A DNA stretch of 64,000 nt from Meiothermus rufus DSM 22234 (GTDB lineage Bacteria > Deinococcota > Deinococci > Deinococcales > Thermaceae). The notes beneath the pieces are model-generated. The model saw nothing but the letters and a program-made list of their open reading frames with translations, did not search any database and was not told where the DNA came from. Location: positions 1 to 64,000 of the forward strand of contig NZ_AUHY01000009.1 of NCBI RefSeq assembly GCF_000423425.1, given 5' to 3'. This document shows, in pieces, positions 10,174 through 36,078 of the stretch (its first letter is position 1; every line of letters begins with the position of its first letter). The translations under genes were made by a program, and so were the position numbers.

Positions 10174-12432
10174 CTAGCGCACCTGAAGGGTGATGACGAC
10201 CAGCGGCGGCTCGGCCTCGGGCCTGCCTGTTTCCCGCACTTCGTAGGTGATCTCGCCGGGGCCAGGGTCGGAAAGGTAGCTCCAACCACAAGCTGGGTTG
10301 AGGGCTACCTCCTTACGACCCACCACCCCTTCCCCACGCTTGACCAACACCGTGTAGCTGGGGGCTGAGCCCAGCCCACCAAAGCGGAAGGGTCGAGAGA
10401 CGGTTCCTCCATCTTGCAGGTTGGTAAGGGTAAAGGCCTGGGTACAAGCCCCCGCCGCCTCGGGTTGGGGCACCACCAGACTCAGGCGAGCCCCAGCCAA
10501 AGCCCCCTCGGCCCGCACCTCGTAGACCCGGGTTCCTGCCTCTGGGGGCGGCACATTCAGACTCCAGCGGCCATTGGCATCGGCCACTACCCGCCCCAGG
10601 CTAGCCCCGTCCTCGAGCACCTCCAAAACCTGGTTGGGCTGGGCCACCCCTGCTAGAGCAAAGCCGCTAGCGGCCACGGTACTCCCCTCTGGCAAACCCA
10701 CAAAGACCGGCTCCGTAGGCCAGACCAGGCTTATCCGTATGCTGGCCCCGGTAGCCTGCCCCGCCCGGCGGACCTGGTAGGTGTGGGGGCCGGCCTGCAA
10801 GGCGGTCTCCAACTTAGACGCCGCCGGGTCGAAGCGCCAGGTGCCCTCCGGCCCCACCGTCACCACCCCCAGGGGCGTATCGTTATCGAGGAGCTCGAGA
10901 ATCTCCCCAGGCCGGCCCGTCCCCTCTAGGGTGTAGCGGCCTATCTCCACCGTGGCCCCGTCCGCCGGGGCACGGATGGTCAGGCTAGCCAGGGGGGTCA
11001 AGCCGGTACTAAAGGCCCGCAGGCCCAGCCCAGGCCAGAACGAGAGCAAGGCCAAGAGGAGCATAGCCCCCCACAACAAAGCCTGTGCGGGTGCTGCGGT
11101 ACGGCTGGCTGGAGCCATCAGGGCCTGGGTGAGGCCCAGAGGAGCGGAGGCCAGGGGAACCCCAGGAGCCTCCGAGGCCCCAAAGCGGGCCACCGCTGCC
11201 TCAGCCTCGCGATCCTCGGCCTCCTGCTGGGGGGTGGGCTGGCTAAACACCAGGAAAAAGGTCTTGAGGTAGTAGTAAGCCCCGATGGCCGAAGTCACCA
11301 AAGCCAGCACCACCAGCCCGTAGAACCCTCCTCGAGCCGCCTCCTGGAAAACCAAATACTTGGCCCAGAAGCCGGCCAAAGGCGGCAGGCCCAGTACCGA
11401 GAGAATACCCAGGCCCATCGCGCCACCCAGCAAAGGCTTGCGGTACCACAACCCGCGCAGCCGTTCCAGGGGCACCTCCTGGTTAGAGAGCATAGAGAGC
11501 ACGGCAAAAATCAGACCGGTAGCTAGGGCATAGGTCAGTAGGTAAAAGGGGATGGTGGCCTGGCCCGTAGGCCCCAGCAGCCCTAGGCCGATATACCCCG
11601 CGTTGGCGATGGAAGAGTAAGCAAAAAGCCGCTTGGCCTCGGTCTGGGCTAAAGCGCCCAGGTTCCCAAACACGGTGGTCAGGGCTACCAGCATCGCCAG
11701 CGCCACACCCCAGGCCTCGAGGCCTTCGGGAGTAAAGATGCGCAGCATGGCGGCGAAGGCCGCGGCCTTGACCGCGGTGGCCATGAACAGCGTTACTACG
11801 GTGGGGCTACCCTGGTAGACATCCGGCGACCACCACTGGAACGGCACCATAGCCGTCTTGAAAGCAAAAGCCACCAATATGAGGAGCAAAGCCAGAATAT
11901 ACAGCGGCCCCGAACCCACCGCCCCGGCGTTGAAACTACCGGTAGCGCCAAAGTACAAGGCTATGCCGTACAAGAAGGTAGCCGCCCCCAAGGCCCCCAG
12001 CAAAAAGTACTTTAGGCCAGCCTCGAAGCCCTTTTCGTCGCGCTGCCAGGCGGCCATCACGTACAAGGGCAGGGAGAAGACCTCGAGGGCAATGAGCAGC
12101 ACCACCAGGTTGGGGCTGCTGGCCATCAGATGCATTCCGGTGACCGCATAGAGCACCAATAGAGGAAACTCAAACTTCTTGGCCGGGCCTAAAAGCAAAG
12201 CCCAAAGCCCGCCCAGGATGGCCACCAGACTCAGGCCCCGAGCCAGGGTGTCGAAACGGTAAAGCCCGCCAAAGGCCTCGTAGGTCTCTCCCCAGCCCAC
12301 CACACAGAACAAGCCCGCCAGCCCTAGGCCCAAAGCACTCAGCCAGCGGTTGGTCTCGCGGGGGATGACAAAGGCCAGCAGGGAAAGCAGGGTGGCCAAC
12401 CCCGCCAGCGTGTATAGAGTTAGCAGGCTCAC
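10174..12432 (-). CDS. nuoN: NADH-quinone oxidoreductase subunit N with C-terminal Ig-like repeats
   Basis: NuoN (Nqo14) is one of the three antiporter-like proton-pumping subunits in the membrane arm of complex I. Residues 1 to about 475 are the 14-helix core, with FKTAMVPFQWWSPDVYQGSP and KYFLLGALGA. The protein is 752 residues, whereas Thermus Nqo14 is about 430. An Ala/Pro-rich insert at about 400-450 precedes the last helix. After the last helix (about 451-470) come three repeats of about 85 residues (484-570, 573-655, 662-750) with Ig-like patterns such as LTIRAPADGATVEIGRYTLE, PEGTWRFDP and ANGRWSLNVP. The third contains two Cys. The reading frame is uninterrupted. The GTG start overlaps the nuoM stop (GTGA). 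Confidence 0.93.
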   Translation of the reverse strand: MSLLTLYTLAGLATLLSLLAFVIPRETNRWLSALGLGLAGLFCVVGWGETYEAFGGLYRFDTLARGLSLVAILGGLWALLLGPAKKFEFPLLVLYAVTGMHLMASSPNLVVLLIALEVFSLPLYVMAAWQRDEKGFEAGLKYFLLGALGAATFLYGIALYFGATGSFNAGAVGSGPLYILALLLILVAFAFKTAMVPFQWWSPDVYQGSPTVVTLFMATAVKAAAFAAMLRIFTPEGLEAWGVALAMLVALTTVFGNLGALAQTEAKRLFAYSSIANAGYIGLGLLGPTGQATIPFYLLTYALATGLIFAVLSMLSNQEVPLERLRGLWYRKPLLGGAMGLGILSVLGLPPLAGFWAKYLVFQEAARGGFYGLVVLALVTSAIGAYYYLKTFFLVFSQPTPQQEAEDREAEAAVARFGASEAPGVPLASAPLGLTQALMAPASRTAAPAQALLWGAMLLLALLSFWPGLGLRAFSTGLTPLASLTIRAPADGATVEIGRYTLEGTGRPGEILELLDNDTPLGVVTVGPEGTWRFDPAASKLETALQAGPHTYQVRRAGQATGASIRISLVWPTEPVFVGLPEGSTVAASGFALAGVAQPNQVLEVLEDGASLGRVVADANGRWSLNVPPPEAGTRVYEVRAEGALAGARLSLVVPQPEAAGACTQAFTLTNLQDGGTVSRPFRFGGLGSAPSYTVLVKRGEGVVGRKEVALNPACGWSYLSDPGPGEITYEVRETGRPEAEPPLVVITLQVR

Positions 12433-13850
12433 GAGGCACCTCCTACCAAGGCCGCCAGCGCCCTACCCAGGGGCTCTAAGTAGGTGGTGAACAGCTTGGG
12501 ATAAAGGCCCATCAATAGCAACACCCCCACCGTTAGCACGGCAAAGCCCCACTCCCGCCCCGCGAGGTCGGGAACCACCTGGGCCTGGGGCTTCTCTTGA
12601 AAGAGTTTTTGGAAGGCCGATAGCGCATAGGCCGCCGCAGCAATTACCGAAAGGAAGGCCAAGAAGGTAAGCCAGGGAGCCACCTGATAGGCCCCCAAAA
12701 GCACCAAGAGCTCACCAGGGAAGCCAGAGAGGCCCGGCAGACCAATCATGGCCATAAGGATGAACATACCCAGCACATACAGGGCCGGAGCATGCCGGGC
12801 CAGCCCCCGTACTGGAGCCACCTCGAGGCTACTCGTGCGCTGGTAGACCCGGCCTACCAGCAAAAACATGGCCGACCCGTAGACCATCGAAGCTCCCAGC
12901 AAGTACAAAGCCCCCACTGTTCCCTCGGCAGTACCGCTAAAAAGCCCCAGGGCCCCCACCCCCATGTGGGAAACCCCAGCGTAGGCCAGAAGGGTTTTCC
13001 AATCCGGCGCACTGAAGGCCAGCCAGGCCGCATAGAGGGCACCAAAAGCCGCCAGGAAGAGCAACAATCCTTGGAACTCGCGAAAACCCTCCGGTACCAA
13101 AGGCAGCGCCCACTTAAAGAAGGCAAAAATCCCCACCTTGTAGAGGGTGCCCATGGCATCGGCCAAGCCCGAGGGGTGGTTCTGCTGGTGGAAGCTGGGC
13201 AGCCAAGCATGTAGGGGGAAGAGGGGGGTTTTGACCGCAAAGGCGATCAGGAAGCCCAAAAAAGCCAGCGCAGCCGCACTGCCCCCCAGCGGATGGGCCG
13301 CCAGGTCAGCGTAGAGGAAGCTTGGCGCTCCCCCCAGGTAGCGCACCGCAAAGATGGCCGCCAGCATGGGCAGCGAGCCTACCAGGGTGAACAGGGCAAA
13401 AATGTAGATGGCCCGCAGCCGCTCCGGCCCGCCGTAAAACCACAGCATGAGCAAAGCAGGAATTAAGGTAGCCTCGAAGAAGGCGTAGAAAAGGAGCAGA
13501 TCCTGGGCGGCGAAGATACCCAAAAGCCCGGTCTGCATCAAGAAGGCCAGCGCCAAAAAGCGGACGGGTACCTCGGCTACCCACACCCCCAGCAGCACCA
13601 CCAGGTTTACCGCCAGCCACAGCAGCAGTCCAGCCCCATCCAATCCCAGCGCGTAGTAAACCCCTACCTCGGGCAAAAAGGGCGTCTGGCTGGTGTAGGC
13701 CAGGCCTTGGCCGCCATAGCCAGCAAACAAGAACAAGGAAACCAGCAGGCTTAGCCCCGCCGCCACCAAGGCAAAGGCCCGGCCCAGGCTAGGCCACAAC
13801 AGGAGCAATAGACCTGCCAGGAGGGGCCACCACAACCCTAGATGAATCAT
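12429..13850 (-). CDS. nuoM: NADH-quinone oxidoreductase subunit M
   Basis: NuoM (Nqo13) is an antiporter-like proton-pumping subunit of complex I. The product has 473 residues and about 14 hydrophobic helices. It shows [20 protein letters not shown] (with the conserved Lys and the helix-7 break), [20 protein letters not shown] with the conserved Glu, and [17 protein letters not shown]. The ATG at 13848-13850 overlaps the nuoL stop as ATGA. A G-rich ribosome binding site (GGGGGTG) lies just upstream. An alternative start at 13865 would lie inside nuoL. The downstream nuoN also overlaps by 4 bases, indicating tight translational coupling. Confidence 0.95.
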
Positions 13851-15679
13851 CGCAACACCCCCCACAGCAAGAGGAGAACCAAGGCCAGCAAAAAGCCCAG
13901 GAGGTAGAGCCGCAGGGCCCCGGCCTCGAGCCGGGCCAAGAGCCCACCTAGCCCACCCATCAGACTGCCCAAGCCGGCAAACCCTCCTAGCAAGCCCCGG
14001 TCAGCGCTAAACAGCAGCTCGGCCAGGGCTTTGAGGGGGTTCACCAACAGAGTGTTATAGAGCATATCCACGTAGAAACCATTCAGCGCAGCTTGCTGGA
14101 AACGGGCATACCACTGGGGCAAAGGTTGCTGGAAGAAGCGGAAGCCCCAGAGCAAAACCCCAATCGCCACCAACGCTGAGACGATAATCAGGGTCCACTC
14201 GGTCCAGACCGGCAGCTTTTCGTGGGGAAACTCGCCAATGGCCTTGCTGAGGAAGGGCTCGAGGAAGTTCTTGTAGTCGATCACATACGGCAAGCCGATA
14301 AACCCTACCCCTAAAGCACCGCCCATCAGGATGTGATTAGGCCAGAGCATGACCGGAGGGCTTTCGTGAGGGTGGGCCTTACCCCGATACTCCCCCAGGA
14401 AGACCAGGACATACCAGCGGATGGAGTACAGCGCTGCCAACGCCGAGGCCAGCAACATTAGGGCCCACAGCCAAGGCCCATACTCAAAGGTGTAGGCCAG
14501 AATGGCGTCTTTGGACCAAAAACCAGCCAGAGGGGGCAGTCCACCCGAGGCCAGCGCCGCCACCAGGCCATGCCGGTGGGTGATAGGCAGGTGCTTGCGC
14601 ATCCCACCCATCTGCCGCACGTCCTGCTCCCCACCCAGCGCATGGATGACCGAGCCCGAGGTCATGAACATCAGGGCCTTGAAGAAGGCATGGGTAACGA
14701 TGTGAAAGATAGCTACCCAGTAGGCCCCCACCCCCACCGCCACGAACATAAAACCTAGTTGGGAAAGGGTGGTGTAGGCCACTATGCGCTTGATATCCCA
14801 CTGGCCCAGGGAGCACAAAGCCCCATAAAAGGCCGTCAGAAGGCCCAGAGCCACGATCGACCCGGCAAGAAAAGCATCGCCATGAAGGATAAAGGCATGC
14901 CGTACCAACAAATAGACCCCCGCCGTCACCATGGTGGCCGCGTGAATCAAGGCCGAGACCGGGGTGGGACCGGCCATAGCATCCGGCAACCAGACCATCA
15001 GGGGTACCTGGGCACTCTTACCGATAGCACCTATCAGCAAAAAGAAGCCAGCCAGGCTCAGGGTAGTAAAGCTATACCCCCCAGCTTCGACCTTCTCCAC
15101 CAGCTCGGAGATGGAGAGGGTACCGAACATGCTCCAAAGCAAGCCCATGGCCAGCAAAAAGCCCAGATCGCCAATGCGGTTGACAATAAAAGCCTTGCGG
15201 GCCGAGTCGGCGTTGACCCGCTCGGTGTACCAGAAGCCAATCAGCAGGTAGGAGGCCAAGCCCACCCCCTCCCAGCCGATGAAGACCACCGGCAGGCTAT
15301 CGCCCAGCACCAGCACCAGCATGGCCGCGATAAATAGGTTGAAATAACTGAAAAAGCGGCTATAGCCAGCGTCGCCGTGCATGTAGCCAATGGCCCAGAG
15401 GTGGATCAGAAAGCCCACTCCGCTGACCACCATCAGCATCACACCGGAAAGGTTGTCCAGGCGCAGGCTGAAAGGAATCCCCGGCAGCCACTCCGCTAAA
15501 GTCCACTTAGCCCCACCCTGAAGTAAGAGCCAAAAACCCAGCAGGAAGCTGCCCAGCACCAAGAAAGAGGCCAGCCAGCCTGCCGCAGGCTCGCCGATAC
15601 GTCGGCCCCAAAGGCCCAGCAGGACAAAACCTAGCAAGGGCAGGGCCACGATTAGGGGAAGCAGTACGGTCTCTTGCAT
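13847..15679 (-). CDS. nuoL: NADH-quinone oxidoreductase subunit L
   Basis: NuoL (Nqo12) is the distal proton-pumping subunit, carrying the long lateral helix that clamps the other antiporter-like subunits. The 610-residue protein contains [55 protein letters not shown] and the [20 protein letters not shown] segment. These are the conserved charged residues of the family. The length matches the Thermus subunit. The ATG at 15679 immediately follows the nuoK stop (15680). No irregularity was seen. Confidence 0.96.
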
Positions 15680-25622: not shown

Positions 25623-26765
25623 TTATCCGTAACGCTTATCCAGCAGAGGAGGCCCCTCCAGAGTGGCCACCGCCTCGATGGCGTCGAAGCGAAGCCCGGT
25701 GCTCTGCTGCAAAGCCGGGCCCAACTGAGGGGGCACCGCCTCGGCTTTGATACGCAGGGTGAGCTTGTCGGTTCCCCCTTCCTTGGTCTCCACCACCACC
25801 TGGGCTCCACCGCGAGGGTCGAGGCCAAAGGCCATCAGCAGCGGGGCCAGCTCGGTAGGATAGAGCTTGACCCCCTTGACCTTGACCATCAGATCGGTAC
25901 GGCCAATCACCCCCCGGGGCAAGCAGACCCGCCCTTCCCGGCGGGAAACCACCGCCAGATCGCCGGTGCGGAAGCGAACCATGGGCATCAGGGTACGGGA
26001 AAGCGAGGTTACCACCAGCTCACCTTTTTCCCCCTCGGGCGTCGGTTCTAAGGTCTCGGGATCAAGCACTTCCAGGATGGCCATCTCCGGTATCTCCCAC
26101 AGGCCGTTTTTCTCTAAGCTTTCCCCCGCCACCACCCCCAGCTCGGAGGTGCCATAGGCGTCTACGGCTACCCCCCCGAGGGCCTGCTCGAGCCTCTCCC
26201 GGTAGCCTGGCACCGAGGTAAAGGGCTCGCCCCCGGCCAAGAGGAGCTGGAACCGCCCCCCTGCCTGGGCAATCTTGAGGGCAAAACTGGGGTTGCAAAC
26301 CAGCACCTCAAAACCATACTGCTGTTGCAGTTGGGCGATGCGCTCCGCCTCGCCAGGGCCATGGGGCAGCACCATGGCCCCCGCCCGCTGCAAGGCTTCG
26401 TGGAAAAGCCAGCCACCAGCAAAAACGTGGTAGCCAAAGGCCACCAATACCCTCTTGCCCGCCACGCCTAGACGGCGCATCTGGCCCGCCAGGGCCTCAG
26501 CCTGGTAGGCCACGTCCTCGGGCGAGAGGTACTCGGGCATCCAGCCAATGGCCGGGCTAGGGGTCAGGTGCATCAGGGCAGCCCCGGCGGGCGGCTGGGG
26601 GTGGGCCTGAAGGTAAGCCAGCCACTCCTGGCGGGTAGTCAGGGGTAGGCAGGAAAGGGTCTCAAGGCTGATCTCACGCGGATCAATCGCGCTGAGTTTT
26701 TGTGCATACACCGGGTGCTTTTGTGCAGCCGCAATCACCTCACGCAAGCGTTGGCTTCGATCCAT
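25623..26765 (-). CDS. Phenylacetate-CoA ligase-like adenylate-forming enzyme
   Basis: This 380-residue member of the PaaK branch of the ANL superfamily should activate a carboxylic acid with ATP and pass it to CoA. The aryl/acyl-adenylate motifs are recognisable: LLAGGEPFTS, DAYGTSELGVVAGES, VRFRTGDLAVV and GRTDLMVKVKGVKLYP. The protein is shorter than typical PaaK (about 430), mostly in the N-terminal region, and the usual Gly/Thr-rich P-loop is not obvious. No phenylacetate genes are nearby, so the substrate is open. ATG 26765 has AAAGGAG upstream. Confidence 0.8.
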   Translation of the reverse strand: MDRSQRLREVIAAAQKHPVYAQKLSAIDPREISLETLSCLPLTTRQEWLAYLQAHPQPPAGAALMHLTPSPAIGWMPEYLSPEDVAYQAEALAGQMRRLGVAGKRVLVAFGYHVFAGGWLFHEALQRAGAMVLPHGPGEAERIAQLQQQYGFEVLVCNPSFALKIAQAGGRFQLLLAGGEPFTSVPGYRERLEQALGGVAVDAYGTSELGVVAGESLEKNGLWEIPEMAILEVLDPETLEPTPEGEKGELVVTSLSRTLMPMVRFRTGDLAVVSRREGRVCLPRGVIGRTDLMVKVKGVKLYPTELAPLLMAFGLDPRGGAQVVVETKEGGTDKLTLRIKAEAVPPQLGPALQQSTGLRFDAIEAVATLEGPPLLDKRYG

Positions 26766-33971: not shown

Positions 33972-34078
33972 CCAAATCCCTTCCCGCTACCCTTTACCGA
34001 AGTGTGCAGCTCTGTAGGAACACCCGTCATTGTACCCGGCCCGGTCGGTCTCGCTGCAGCCACTCCCCAACCCCTGCT

Positions 34079-35458
34079 TCAGAAGTACACTGGCTCCCGC
34101 CGCAGGAAGCGGCCCCACCCTTTCTGGCCCACAAACTGGCCATCCCTGACCGCCAACCGGCCCCGCACCGTCACGTGGACGGGTCGGCCGTCGATCTCAA
34201 AGCCTTCAAAGCCGTTGTAATCGTTGTTCACACTTTGGGTGGCCACCGAAATCCGGCCCCGGTAGGTGGGGTCGTAGACCACCAGGTCGGCGTCGCTGCC
34301 CACCGCGATGGTGCCCTTCCGGGGAAACAGGCCAAAGAGCTTGGCCGCTTTGGTGCTGGCCGCGTCCACAAAGCGGTGGATGTCCAAGGAACCCCGGCTC
34401 ACCCCATAGGTGTAGAGCAGGTTGACCCGGTCCTCGATGGCGGGAATACCGTTGGGAATAGCGGTAAAGGCATCCCTGCCCAGCAGTTTCTGCTCGGTAT
34501 CAAAGGGGCAGTGGTCAGTGCCCACGGTATCGATGAAGCCCTGGGCCAGGGCATCCCACAGCGCTTTCTGGTTGCGCTTGTCGCGCAAAGGCGGCGACAT
34601 GATGTACTTCATGGCCTCCACCCCGCCCCGCTCGGCATAGGTTTTGTCCAGCAGGAAGTGGGGGATCACCGATTCGATGTAGATGGGCACCCCTCGAGCC
34701 TTGGCCCGCAGGGCCGCTTCCAGGGCCGGCTGGCAGGAAAGGTGTACCACATAGCCGGTGGCCCCGGTGTTTTCCAGAAAGGTGGCGAAGCGGTTGGTGC
34801 CCTCAGCCTCCACCGACTCGGGCCGGCTGGGTTCGTGCCACTCGGGGCCGGTCTTGCCCTCGCGCAAAAGCTTCTGCTGCAACTGCCCGACCAACTCGGC
34901 GTTCTCGCAGTGGGCAGTGACGATTACCCCCAGCTCCTTGGCCAAGCACATGGTCTGGTACATCTCGCCGTCTTCCACGCCGAAGAAGTTCTTGTACGAC
35001 AGGAAAATCTTGAAGCTGTTGATGCCGTCGGCCACAATCTCGCGAAGCTGGGCCTCGGTCTTGGGGTCGTACTTGGTGACCGACATGTGGAAGGTGTAGT
35101 CGCAGTAGCTGTGGCCCTCGGCCTTACCCTTCCAGAGGTGGTAGCCCTCGAGGGCATCGTCGGCCCGGCTGGGGCAACACATCTCGATATAGGTGGTGGT
35201 GCCCCCCATCAAAGCCGCCTTGGAGCCAGTCTCGTGGGTATCTTTGGCAAAGGTGGCCATGAAGGGCAGGTAGATGTGCACGTGGGGGTCGATGAAGCCA
35301 GGAAAAACATACTTGCCCGTAGCGTCGATGACCTCTGTTCCCGGCGGGGCCTCCAGGTTCTGGCCGATGCGGGTAATGGTCTCGCCCTCGGCGTAGATAT
35401 CGGCTTTATAGCGGCTATCTGCAGTGACGATTTCACCGTTTTTGATCAGCAGTCCCAT
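34079..35458 (-). CDS. Dihydropyrimidinase (hydantoinase)
   Basis: The 459-residue (approximately) amidohydrolase opens dihydrouracil or dihydrothymine to the N-carbamoyl-beta-amino acid. All metal-site residues are seen: HVH in IDPHVHIYLP, the Lys to be carboxylated in NSFKIFLSYKN, His in VTAHCENAEL, His in YVVHLSCQPA and Asp in VGTDHCPFD. The C-terminal beta-strands (SDADLVVYDPTYRGRISV) complete the fold. ATG 35458 has GGAGGAGTGC upstream. A longer frame runs into the Uma2 gene and is rejected. It lies between PreA and the transporter genes of the pathway. Confidence 0.94.
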   Translation of the reverse strand: MGLLIKNGEIVTADSRYKADIYAEGETITRIGQNLEAPPGTEVIDATGKYVFPGFIDPHVHIYLPFMATFAKDTHETGSKAALMGGTTTYIEMCCPSRADDALEGYHLWKGKAEGHSYCDYTFHMSVTKYDPKTEAQLREIVADGINSFKIFLSYKNFFGVEDGEMYQTMCLAKELGVIVTAHCENAELVGQLQQKLLREGKTGPEWHEPSRPESVEAEGTNRFATFLENTGATGYVVHLSCQPALEAALRAKARGVPIYIESVIPHFLLDKTYAERGGVEAMKYIMSPPLRDKRNQKALWDALAQGFIDTVGTDHCPFDTEQKLLGRDAFTAIPNGIPAIEDRVNLLYTYGVSRGSLDIHRFVDAASTKAAKLFGLFPRKGTIAVGSDADLVVYDPTYRGRISVATQSVNNDYNGFEGFEIDGRPVHVTVRGRLAVRDGQFVGQKGWGRFLRREPVYF

Positions 35459-35505
35459 GCACTCCTCCGTTTGTCGCTTCCCTACAGCCAAGCCTTGGCC
35501 CTCCT

Positions 35506-36078
35506 TCAGGTAAACACCCCGCGGTAAATCTGGGTCAACGAGATGCTCCCACCCAAGCAGGCTAGGCTTATAAGGCCATCCCCAGCCAGGTCCTGCTCCT
35601 GCCAATGCCCTTCTTCATCGCGCCAGCAGTGCCGAACCAGCAGCGTATCCTGATCCACGATGAGGTAGGTCCTAAGCGAGGGTAAGCGGATGTACTCGAG
35701 CTTCTTTTCCCTCAGATCCACAACAGCCGTGGAAGGCGAAAGCACCTCCACCAATAGGCAAGGCTCGGTCTCGTAATACTCGTCAGGCAGTTCCTTGCCA
35801 CACACCACCATCACGTCAGGGTAGTAGATGGCCTTTTCCGTATCGCTGGCCCTAGACTGGCCTATGAAAAGCTTCATATTCGCCTGGTAAACCCGGCAAC
35901 CCGGCGAGGCCAACGATAGAAAATGGGCAGCGATGTTTAAGGCAATTCGGTTGTGCCGGCTGCTGCTGCCCGCCATAGCGTAGACCTGGCCACACACATA
36001 CTCACGGCGCACCGGAGAAGACCGCTCGCTTTGGAGGTACTCCGCAACCGTAACGAACCTGGGCAATGGCTTCAGCAT
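35506..36078 (-). CDS. Uma2 family (DUF820) PD-(D/E)XK nuclease-like protein
   Basis: The 190-residue protein matches Uma2/DUF820 proteins: an N-terminal PRFVTVAEYLQSERSS...RREYVCGQVYAMAGSSSRHN, and the nuclease core YYPDVMVVCGKE followed by CLLVEVLSPST. These genes occur as dispersed multi-copy families in thermophiles and cyanobacteria; function is unproved. It sits inside the pyrimidine operon between preA and dihydropyrimidinase, with which it has no evident functional link. TAGACT at 36085-36090 (minus) lies exactly six bases before the ATG, suggesting its own leaderless transcript. Confidence 0.88.
   Translation of the reverse strand: MLKPLPRFVTVAEYLQSERSSPVRREYVCGQVYAMAGSSSRHNRIALNIAAHFLSLASPGCRVYQANMKLFIGQSRASDTEKAIYYPDVMVVCGKELPDEYYETEPCLLVEVLSPSTAVVDLREKKLEYIRLPSLRTYLIVDQDTLLVRHCWRDEEGHWQEQDLAGDGLISLACLGGSISLTQIYRGVFT

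Follow-up and report, generated by a model that had tools for sequence, protein, structure and literature searches.

The 64,000-nucleotide stretch of Meiothermus rufus DSM 22234 that we analyzed (hereafter, the window) contains a nuo operon in which nuoN is the final gene, downstream of nuoL and nuoM, as judged from the layout of open reading frames (ORFs) and from neighbors recognized by their sequence. A first-pass annotation had proposed that nuoN runs, with neither a stop nor a frameshift, into a C-terminal extension of three Ig-like repeats. The gene is indeed one continuous frame, and its features are listed in Table 1 together with those of related loci. Upstream of nuoA lies an AMP-binding-type (LuxE/PaaK-like) gene (positions 25623-26765), and the sister genus g2 likewise has a gene of this type ahead of its nuo operon. 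At positions 34004-35605, two open frames of >500 codons each overlap on opposite strands, probably reflecting a G+C-rich shadow frame.

Table 1. Coordinates of the nuoN features in the window and of related loci in other genomes
Feature	Position	Strand	Evidence and remarks
nuoN ORF	window 10174-12432	-	752 aa, GTG start, no internal stop
NuoM-like gene	12429..13865	-	ORF, recognized from sequence; 4-base overlap with nuoN start
NuoN core, aa 1-476, 14 transmembrane helices	11005..12432	-	Pfam, 4he8_N alignment, residues and charge pattern
Ala/Pro-rich helix 13-14 loop, aa 397-448, predicted cytoplasmic	11089..11244	-	Alignment with 30 relatives
Helix 14, aa 449-476	11005..11088	-	Alignment with last helix of Thermus NuoN
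Ig1, aa 484-570	10723..10983	-	Profile i-E 6e-21, AlphaFold2 beta-sandwich; missing in G032
Ig2, aa 576-655	10468..10707	-	Big_6 E 1.5e-8, profile i-E 2e-17, AlphaFold2
Ig3, aa 661-752, Cys663/Cys715	10177..10452	-	Profile i-E 3e-33, best conserved of the three
Shortened nuoN tails, cut within Ig1	L066 6351-6497; L067 6315-6443		M. taiwanensis; MAG KatS3mg071
Standalone single-helix Ig proteins	L075 3958-4875; L071 4880-6010; L166		
Two-gene unit, membrane coiled-coil and single-helix Ig	L075 3958-7008; L071 4880-6318; L143; L146		

The assignment of the protein to NuoN was borne out by several observations. Pfam Proton_antipo_M matched residues 106-383 (E 4.5e-56), and residues 5-403 aligned with Thermus thermophilus Nqo14 (PDB 4he8_N; E 6e-115). 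The charged residues of helices 5, 7, 8, and 12, whose role has been described (PMC10212512), are present as E117, K192, K222, and K358, and their equivalents are invariant in our NuoN alignment (A3). Unlike canonical NuoN, the window protein continues for ~276 residues past helix 14. As the annotation had stated, known NuoN/Nqo14 proteins stop shortly after this helix; T. thermophilus Nqo14 comprises 427 residues. In the alignment, LLGL..PG..LRAFSAG of helix 14 pairs with LLGLFPG..LPALAAG at the Thermus C terminus. Since the Thermus proteins end with the counterpart of helix 14, the extra sequence begins right after the canonical C terminus. Ending far beyond helix 14 is a variant feature and no ground for excluding the protein from NuoN/Nqo14.

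The unusual Ala/Pro-rich insert noted in the annotation at about residues 400-450 is also real. It corresponds to the loop between helices 13 and 14, which is ~45 residues longer than in Thermus. Across the aligned relatives, Meiothermus has a long, conserved version of this loop, the two sister genera a shorter one, and Thermus one of only a few residues. The enlarged loop includes the conserved stretches EAEDREAEAA and FGSSEAPG.

To delimit the repeats, we used profiles that contained no Meiothermus NuoN sequence, the Ig3 profile being built solely from standalone homologs. These profiles matched residues 484-568 (Ig1), 581-652 (Ig2), and 662-752 (Ig3), with the i-E values given in Table 1. 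The blocks, of ~86, ~80, and ~92 residues, agree with the three similar blocks of about 85 residues described in the annotation, and the span claimed for them, 10174-10983, covers Ig1 through Ig3 plus the stop codon. As the Ig1/2 profile extends into Ig3 (residues 708-740, E 2e-3), the three blocks are related. In Pfam, Big_6 matched Ig2 only (residues 581-641; 35.2 bits versus a gathering score of 27.6), and Ig3 had no match. Ig3 has a signature of its own, consisting of a CGWSYxSDPGPG stretch and two cysteines, Cys663 and Cys715, which are present as annotated and invariant across the Ig3 family alignment. When the tail alone was compared with PDB sequences, there was no match at E values up to 10.

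Structure prediction, which the annotation had suggested as a check, yielded the anticipated fold. Using an alignment that included seven relatives, AlphaFold2 modeled residues 471-752 as three successive beta-sandwiches (pLDDT 88.3, pTM 0.80), matching the seven-strand sandwich expected of bacterial Ig-like domains, and an Ig-like fold of the tail is thus predicted with good confidence. Foldseek matched the model to tandem Ig-fold arrays in the PDB (E down to 1.5e-10). TM-scores across the whole array were ~0.2, presumably due to inter-domain angles in flexible strings, and the matches support a tandem Ig-like architecture rather than any particular relative. A full-length AlphaFold2 model was discarded as a guide to domain orientation; its membrane core had a pLDDT of ~30 and its alignment was shallow.

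The annotation had placed the repeats in the periplasm. The 14-helix fold of NuoN has been published (PMC10212512, PMC3046159), and 14 helices put both ends of the protein on one side of the membrane. With helix boundaries taken approximately from the full-length model, the loops of the core contain 3 lysines and arginines on the side of both termini versus 14 on the other side. From this charge pattern and the known fold, we infer that the C terminus and the tail are periplasmic, in line with that placement.

A survey of NuoN lengths in relatives revealed that the extension is conserved. All three Ig domains are present in 14 of 18 sampled Meiothermus genomes. Among the remaining genomes, one is without Ig1 and keeps two domains (G032), two are truncated, at about residue 529 in M. 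taiwanensis (G043; locus L066) and about residue 510 in KatS3mg071 (G039; locus L067), and one has a nuoN broken at a contig end (G041). A single Ig domain is found on NuoN in all four genomes of the sister genera g2 and g3, whereas g4 and g5, which we presume to be Thermus and a close relative, have an Ig-less NuoN in all of their 28 genomes. Outside Meiothermus, g2, and g3, no Ig domains of this type were found on NuoN proteins of the class. In a tree of the core, the extended forms make up one clade with 100/100 support and Thermus outside, which shows a single origin of tail-bearing NuoN. Other long NuoN frames (581-619 residues in f4 g13, and up to ~1000 residues elsewhere) were considered and rejected as carriers of C-terminal tails, as in the twelve checked the extra length is N-terminal to the core. 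For coverage beyond the class, one scan of genome contigs returned only Thermaceae and one planctomycete.

Ig3 is the most constrained domain. Within Meiothermus, mean identity is 79% for Ig3 versus 62% for Ig1. In close pairs, dN/dS is ~0.12-0.15 for Ig1, 0.09-0.13 for Ig2, ~0.04 for Ig3 (closest pair), and 0.05-0.07 for the core; in more distant pairs, it reaches 0.39 (Ig1) and 0.27 (Ig3). Every value lies well below 1. These substitution ratios show that the tail is under purifying selection and, being low, that it is translated. An artefact of assembly or reading frame might be suspected in a draft genome split into 121 contigs, yet the same architecture recurs in 13 further Meiothermus genomes, including the complete or near-complete G031, G037, G038, and G040. 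Conservation across species together with low dN/dS rules out chance or misassembly, leaving this explanation a negligible probability. A stop at this position in relatives, which the annotation had named as a sign of assembly error, was seen in only two lineages, each through its own deletion.

We compared these two lineages with an M. ruber-like locus (L077). In M. taiwanensis, homology ends at about codon 526 and picks up again 3′ of the gene; in KatS3mg071, ~0.7 kb is absent, from about codon 510 to just upstream of the stop. If the draft assemblies are correct, Ig2 and Ig3 would have been lost by different deletions, and the tail would be dispensable in at least these two lineages. Such losses, together with the loss of Ig1 in one genome and a domain number that varies from zero to three, raise the question of whether the tail does much at all. 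Periplasmic C-terminal ends tolerate fusions, and the tail could be a nearly neutral domain capture, kept mainly to avoid misfolding. We consider this distinctly improbable, given the retention of the tail in most Meiothermus genomes and the identity, invariant cysteine pair, and low dN/dS of Ig3. A tree built from individual Ig domains over 81 columns is compatible with either origin of Ig2, from a standalone gene or by duplication within nuoN.

Relatives of the tail also exist as standalone proteins, in which two or three Ig domains homologous to those of NuoN come after a single membrane helix. Eight Meiothermus genomes encode, besides NuoN, a 305- to 316-residue protein that has three Ig domains behind one helix and shares 39-47% identity with the NuoN tail (60-67% in Ig3). 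In the window genome, Ig domains of this group were found on NuoN only. Ig3 with its cysteine pair also occurs in L071/L072 and in the Meiothermus standalone copies; in the 111 genomes searched from the class, only Meiothermus, g2, and a single f3 genome had it, and the lone Ig domain of g2 and g3 NuoN was matched weakly. A 413-residue frame in L074 (G006) joins a membrane segment to a C-terminal Ig3-type domain (CNWGYLS); in the class sample, no other Ig3 came from outside Thermaceae. The N-terminal part of this frame may be DUF937/YidB-like.

Some standalone proteins end in a peptidoglycan-binding LysM domain. The g2 protein of L071 has the order helix-Ig-Ig-Ig3-LysM (LysM E 7e-13), and LysM forms, read from sequence, occur also in f4 (L080, L164-L166); the Meiothermus standalone proteins are without LysM. 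The LysM-bearing relatives lend indirect support to the annotation's suggestion that the NuoN repeats might bind peptidoglycan. Window NuoN resembles these putative tethers in having a membrane anchor followed by Ig domains and differs in its end, as no LysM (Pfam, E up to 1) or other known wall-binding domain was found.

Several standalone genes are paired with a second gene. In L075, the gene directly upstream of the Ig gene encodes a membrane coiled-coil protein that has helix-hairpin-helix domains, and the other Meiothermus copies whose flanks were read appear to share this arrangement. Similar pairs are present in f3 (L143, L146) and in g2 (L071), where a gene for a 103-residue coiled-coil protein comes first. 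The g2 pair is upstream of nuoA, separated from it by a gene of the AMP-binding type that also precedes the window nuo operon. The two-gene unit looks like an envelope module. Since Ig arrays often mediate protein contacts, these operons in Meiothermus, g2, and f3 raise the possibility that the NuoN tail serves to dock another respiratory or envelope protein, such as the coiled-coil protein, and forms a supercomplex. This seems quite unlikely: the full coiled-coil partner was found only in genomes that also encode the standalone Ig protein, and in the window genome only its helix-hairpin-helix part is matched, weakly and by a frame that is different and longer.

A second proton pump carries a homologous domain. 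In one f3 genome (G007; L073, 2657-5269), an 870-residue H+-pyrophosphatase (H_PPase E 9e-257) has a C-terminal Ig domain that matches the same Ig profile at E 1.1e-31, the sequence itself being a row of that profile. The pyrophosphatase frames of three relatives have 707-715 residues and are without Ig. As it was seen in one genome only, we treat the fusion as a lead rather than a result.

Together, these observations suggest a tentative model. The ancestor shared by Meiothermus and its two sister genera would have gained an Ig-like domain after helix 14 of its NuoN, and the tail would have expanded to three domains in Meiothermus. There, the three domains would form a rod that emerges into the periplasm and may serve as a spacer or tether from complex I to the envelope, with Ig3 as the contact domain. 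A string of Ig domains on the periplasmic side of a membrane protein, with close relatives ending in LysM, is best read in this way, and a distal Ig3 that is the most constrained domain is as expected if Ig3 makes contact; both roles are inferred by analogy. In favor are the presence of the tail in most Meiothermus genomes, purifying selection, the conservation of Ig3, a confidently predicted fold, the LysM-bearing homologs, and a g2 LysM-Ig gene that adjoins the nuo operon. Against it are the lack of LysM from NuoN and the Meiothermus standalone relatives and the only moderate conservation of Ig1. The losses of Ig2 and Ig3 in M. taiwanensis and KatS3mg071, and the tail-less Thermus proteins, mean that a tether cannot be essential. 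Overall, a genuine, translated extension of complex I that acts as a periplasmic spacer or tether is the explanation we find best, with a little less than an even chance of being correct.

The same position on NuoN, a subunit midway along the membrane arm, would also suit Ig domains packed on the periplasmic face as a built-in stabilizer or assembly scaffold that links NuoN to its neighbors, much like supernumerary subunits. That the tail is covalently attached, is under purifying selection, and belongs to a thermophile fits this idea, which we nonetheless regard as unlikely, because homologous modules occur as free single-helix proteins and are therefore not specific to complex I, because Thermus grows hotter without a tail, and because the tail has been lost naturally twice.

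Returning to the tether, few membrane proteins are as conserved as the antiporter-like subunits of complex I, whose 14-subunit bacterial form is usually regarded as a bare minimal machine. If true, a conserved periplasmic arm in a core subunit would be a way of anchoring or organizing a respiratory enzyme in the envelope for which we found no precedent in the literature searched. A broader proposal, which we put forward as speculative and rather doubtful, is that Meiothermus complex I is mechanically fixed to the envelope through its covalent Ig rod, and that Ig rods from inner-membrane wall tethers moved more than once in the phylum onto proton pumps (complex I and H+-pyrophosphatase), where they would determine how the pumps are positioned or how mobile they are. 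The tether question is open to test in cultured thermophiles, with tail-less M. taiwanensis as a natural control.

We found no published description of a NuoN-Ig fusion in the literature searched, and the architecture is a variant NuoN rather than a new kind of system. Its core is the same 14-helix antiporter-like subunit as T. thermophilus Nqo14 (PDB 4he8 chain N, 4hea), which differs in ending at helix 14, in having no Ig domain, and in its short helix 13-14 loop. The tail is like Big_6 (PF17936) in the score of Ig2, above the gathering threshold, and in its predicted beta-sandwiches, and unlike it in that Ig3 is unmatched in Pfam. The standalone Ig proteins share a membrane helix followed by homologous Ig domains, but have one helix instead of a 14-helix pump, a LysM end in g2 and f4, and, in several genomes, a coiled-coil operon of their own. 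The pyrophosphatase fusion is likewise a proton pump with C-terminal Ig, although the pump is a different one and the fusion is restricted to one genome. In the same phylum, Deinococcus radiodurans has a large periplasm, a thick peptidoglycan, and dedicated envelope connectors such as SlpA (PMC9388160), as well as an HPI S-layer built of Ig domains (PMC10120038); HPI (8cka) was among the Foldseek matches of the NuoN tail. Unlike NuoN, SlpA and HPI are outer membrane or surface proteins outside the respiratory enzymes, and we compare them without implying a sequence relation. With such connectors and an Ig-built S-layer in a relative, contact between the NuoN tail and the envelope is plausible.
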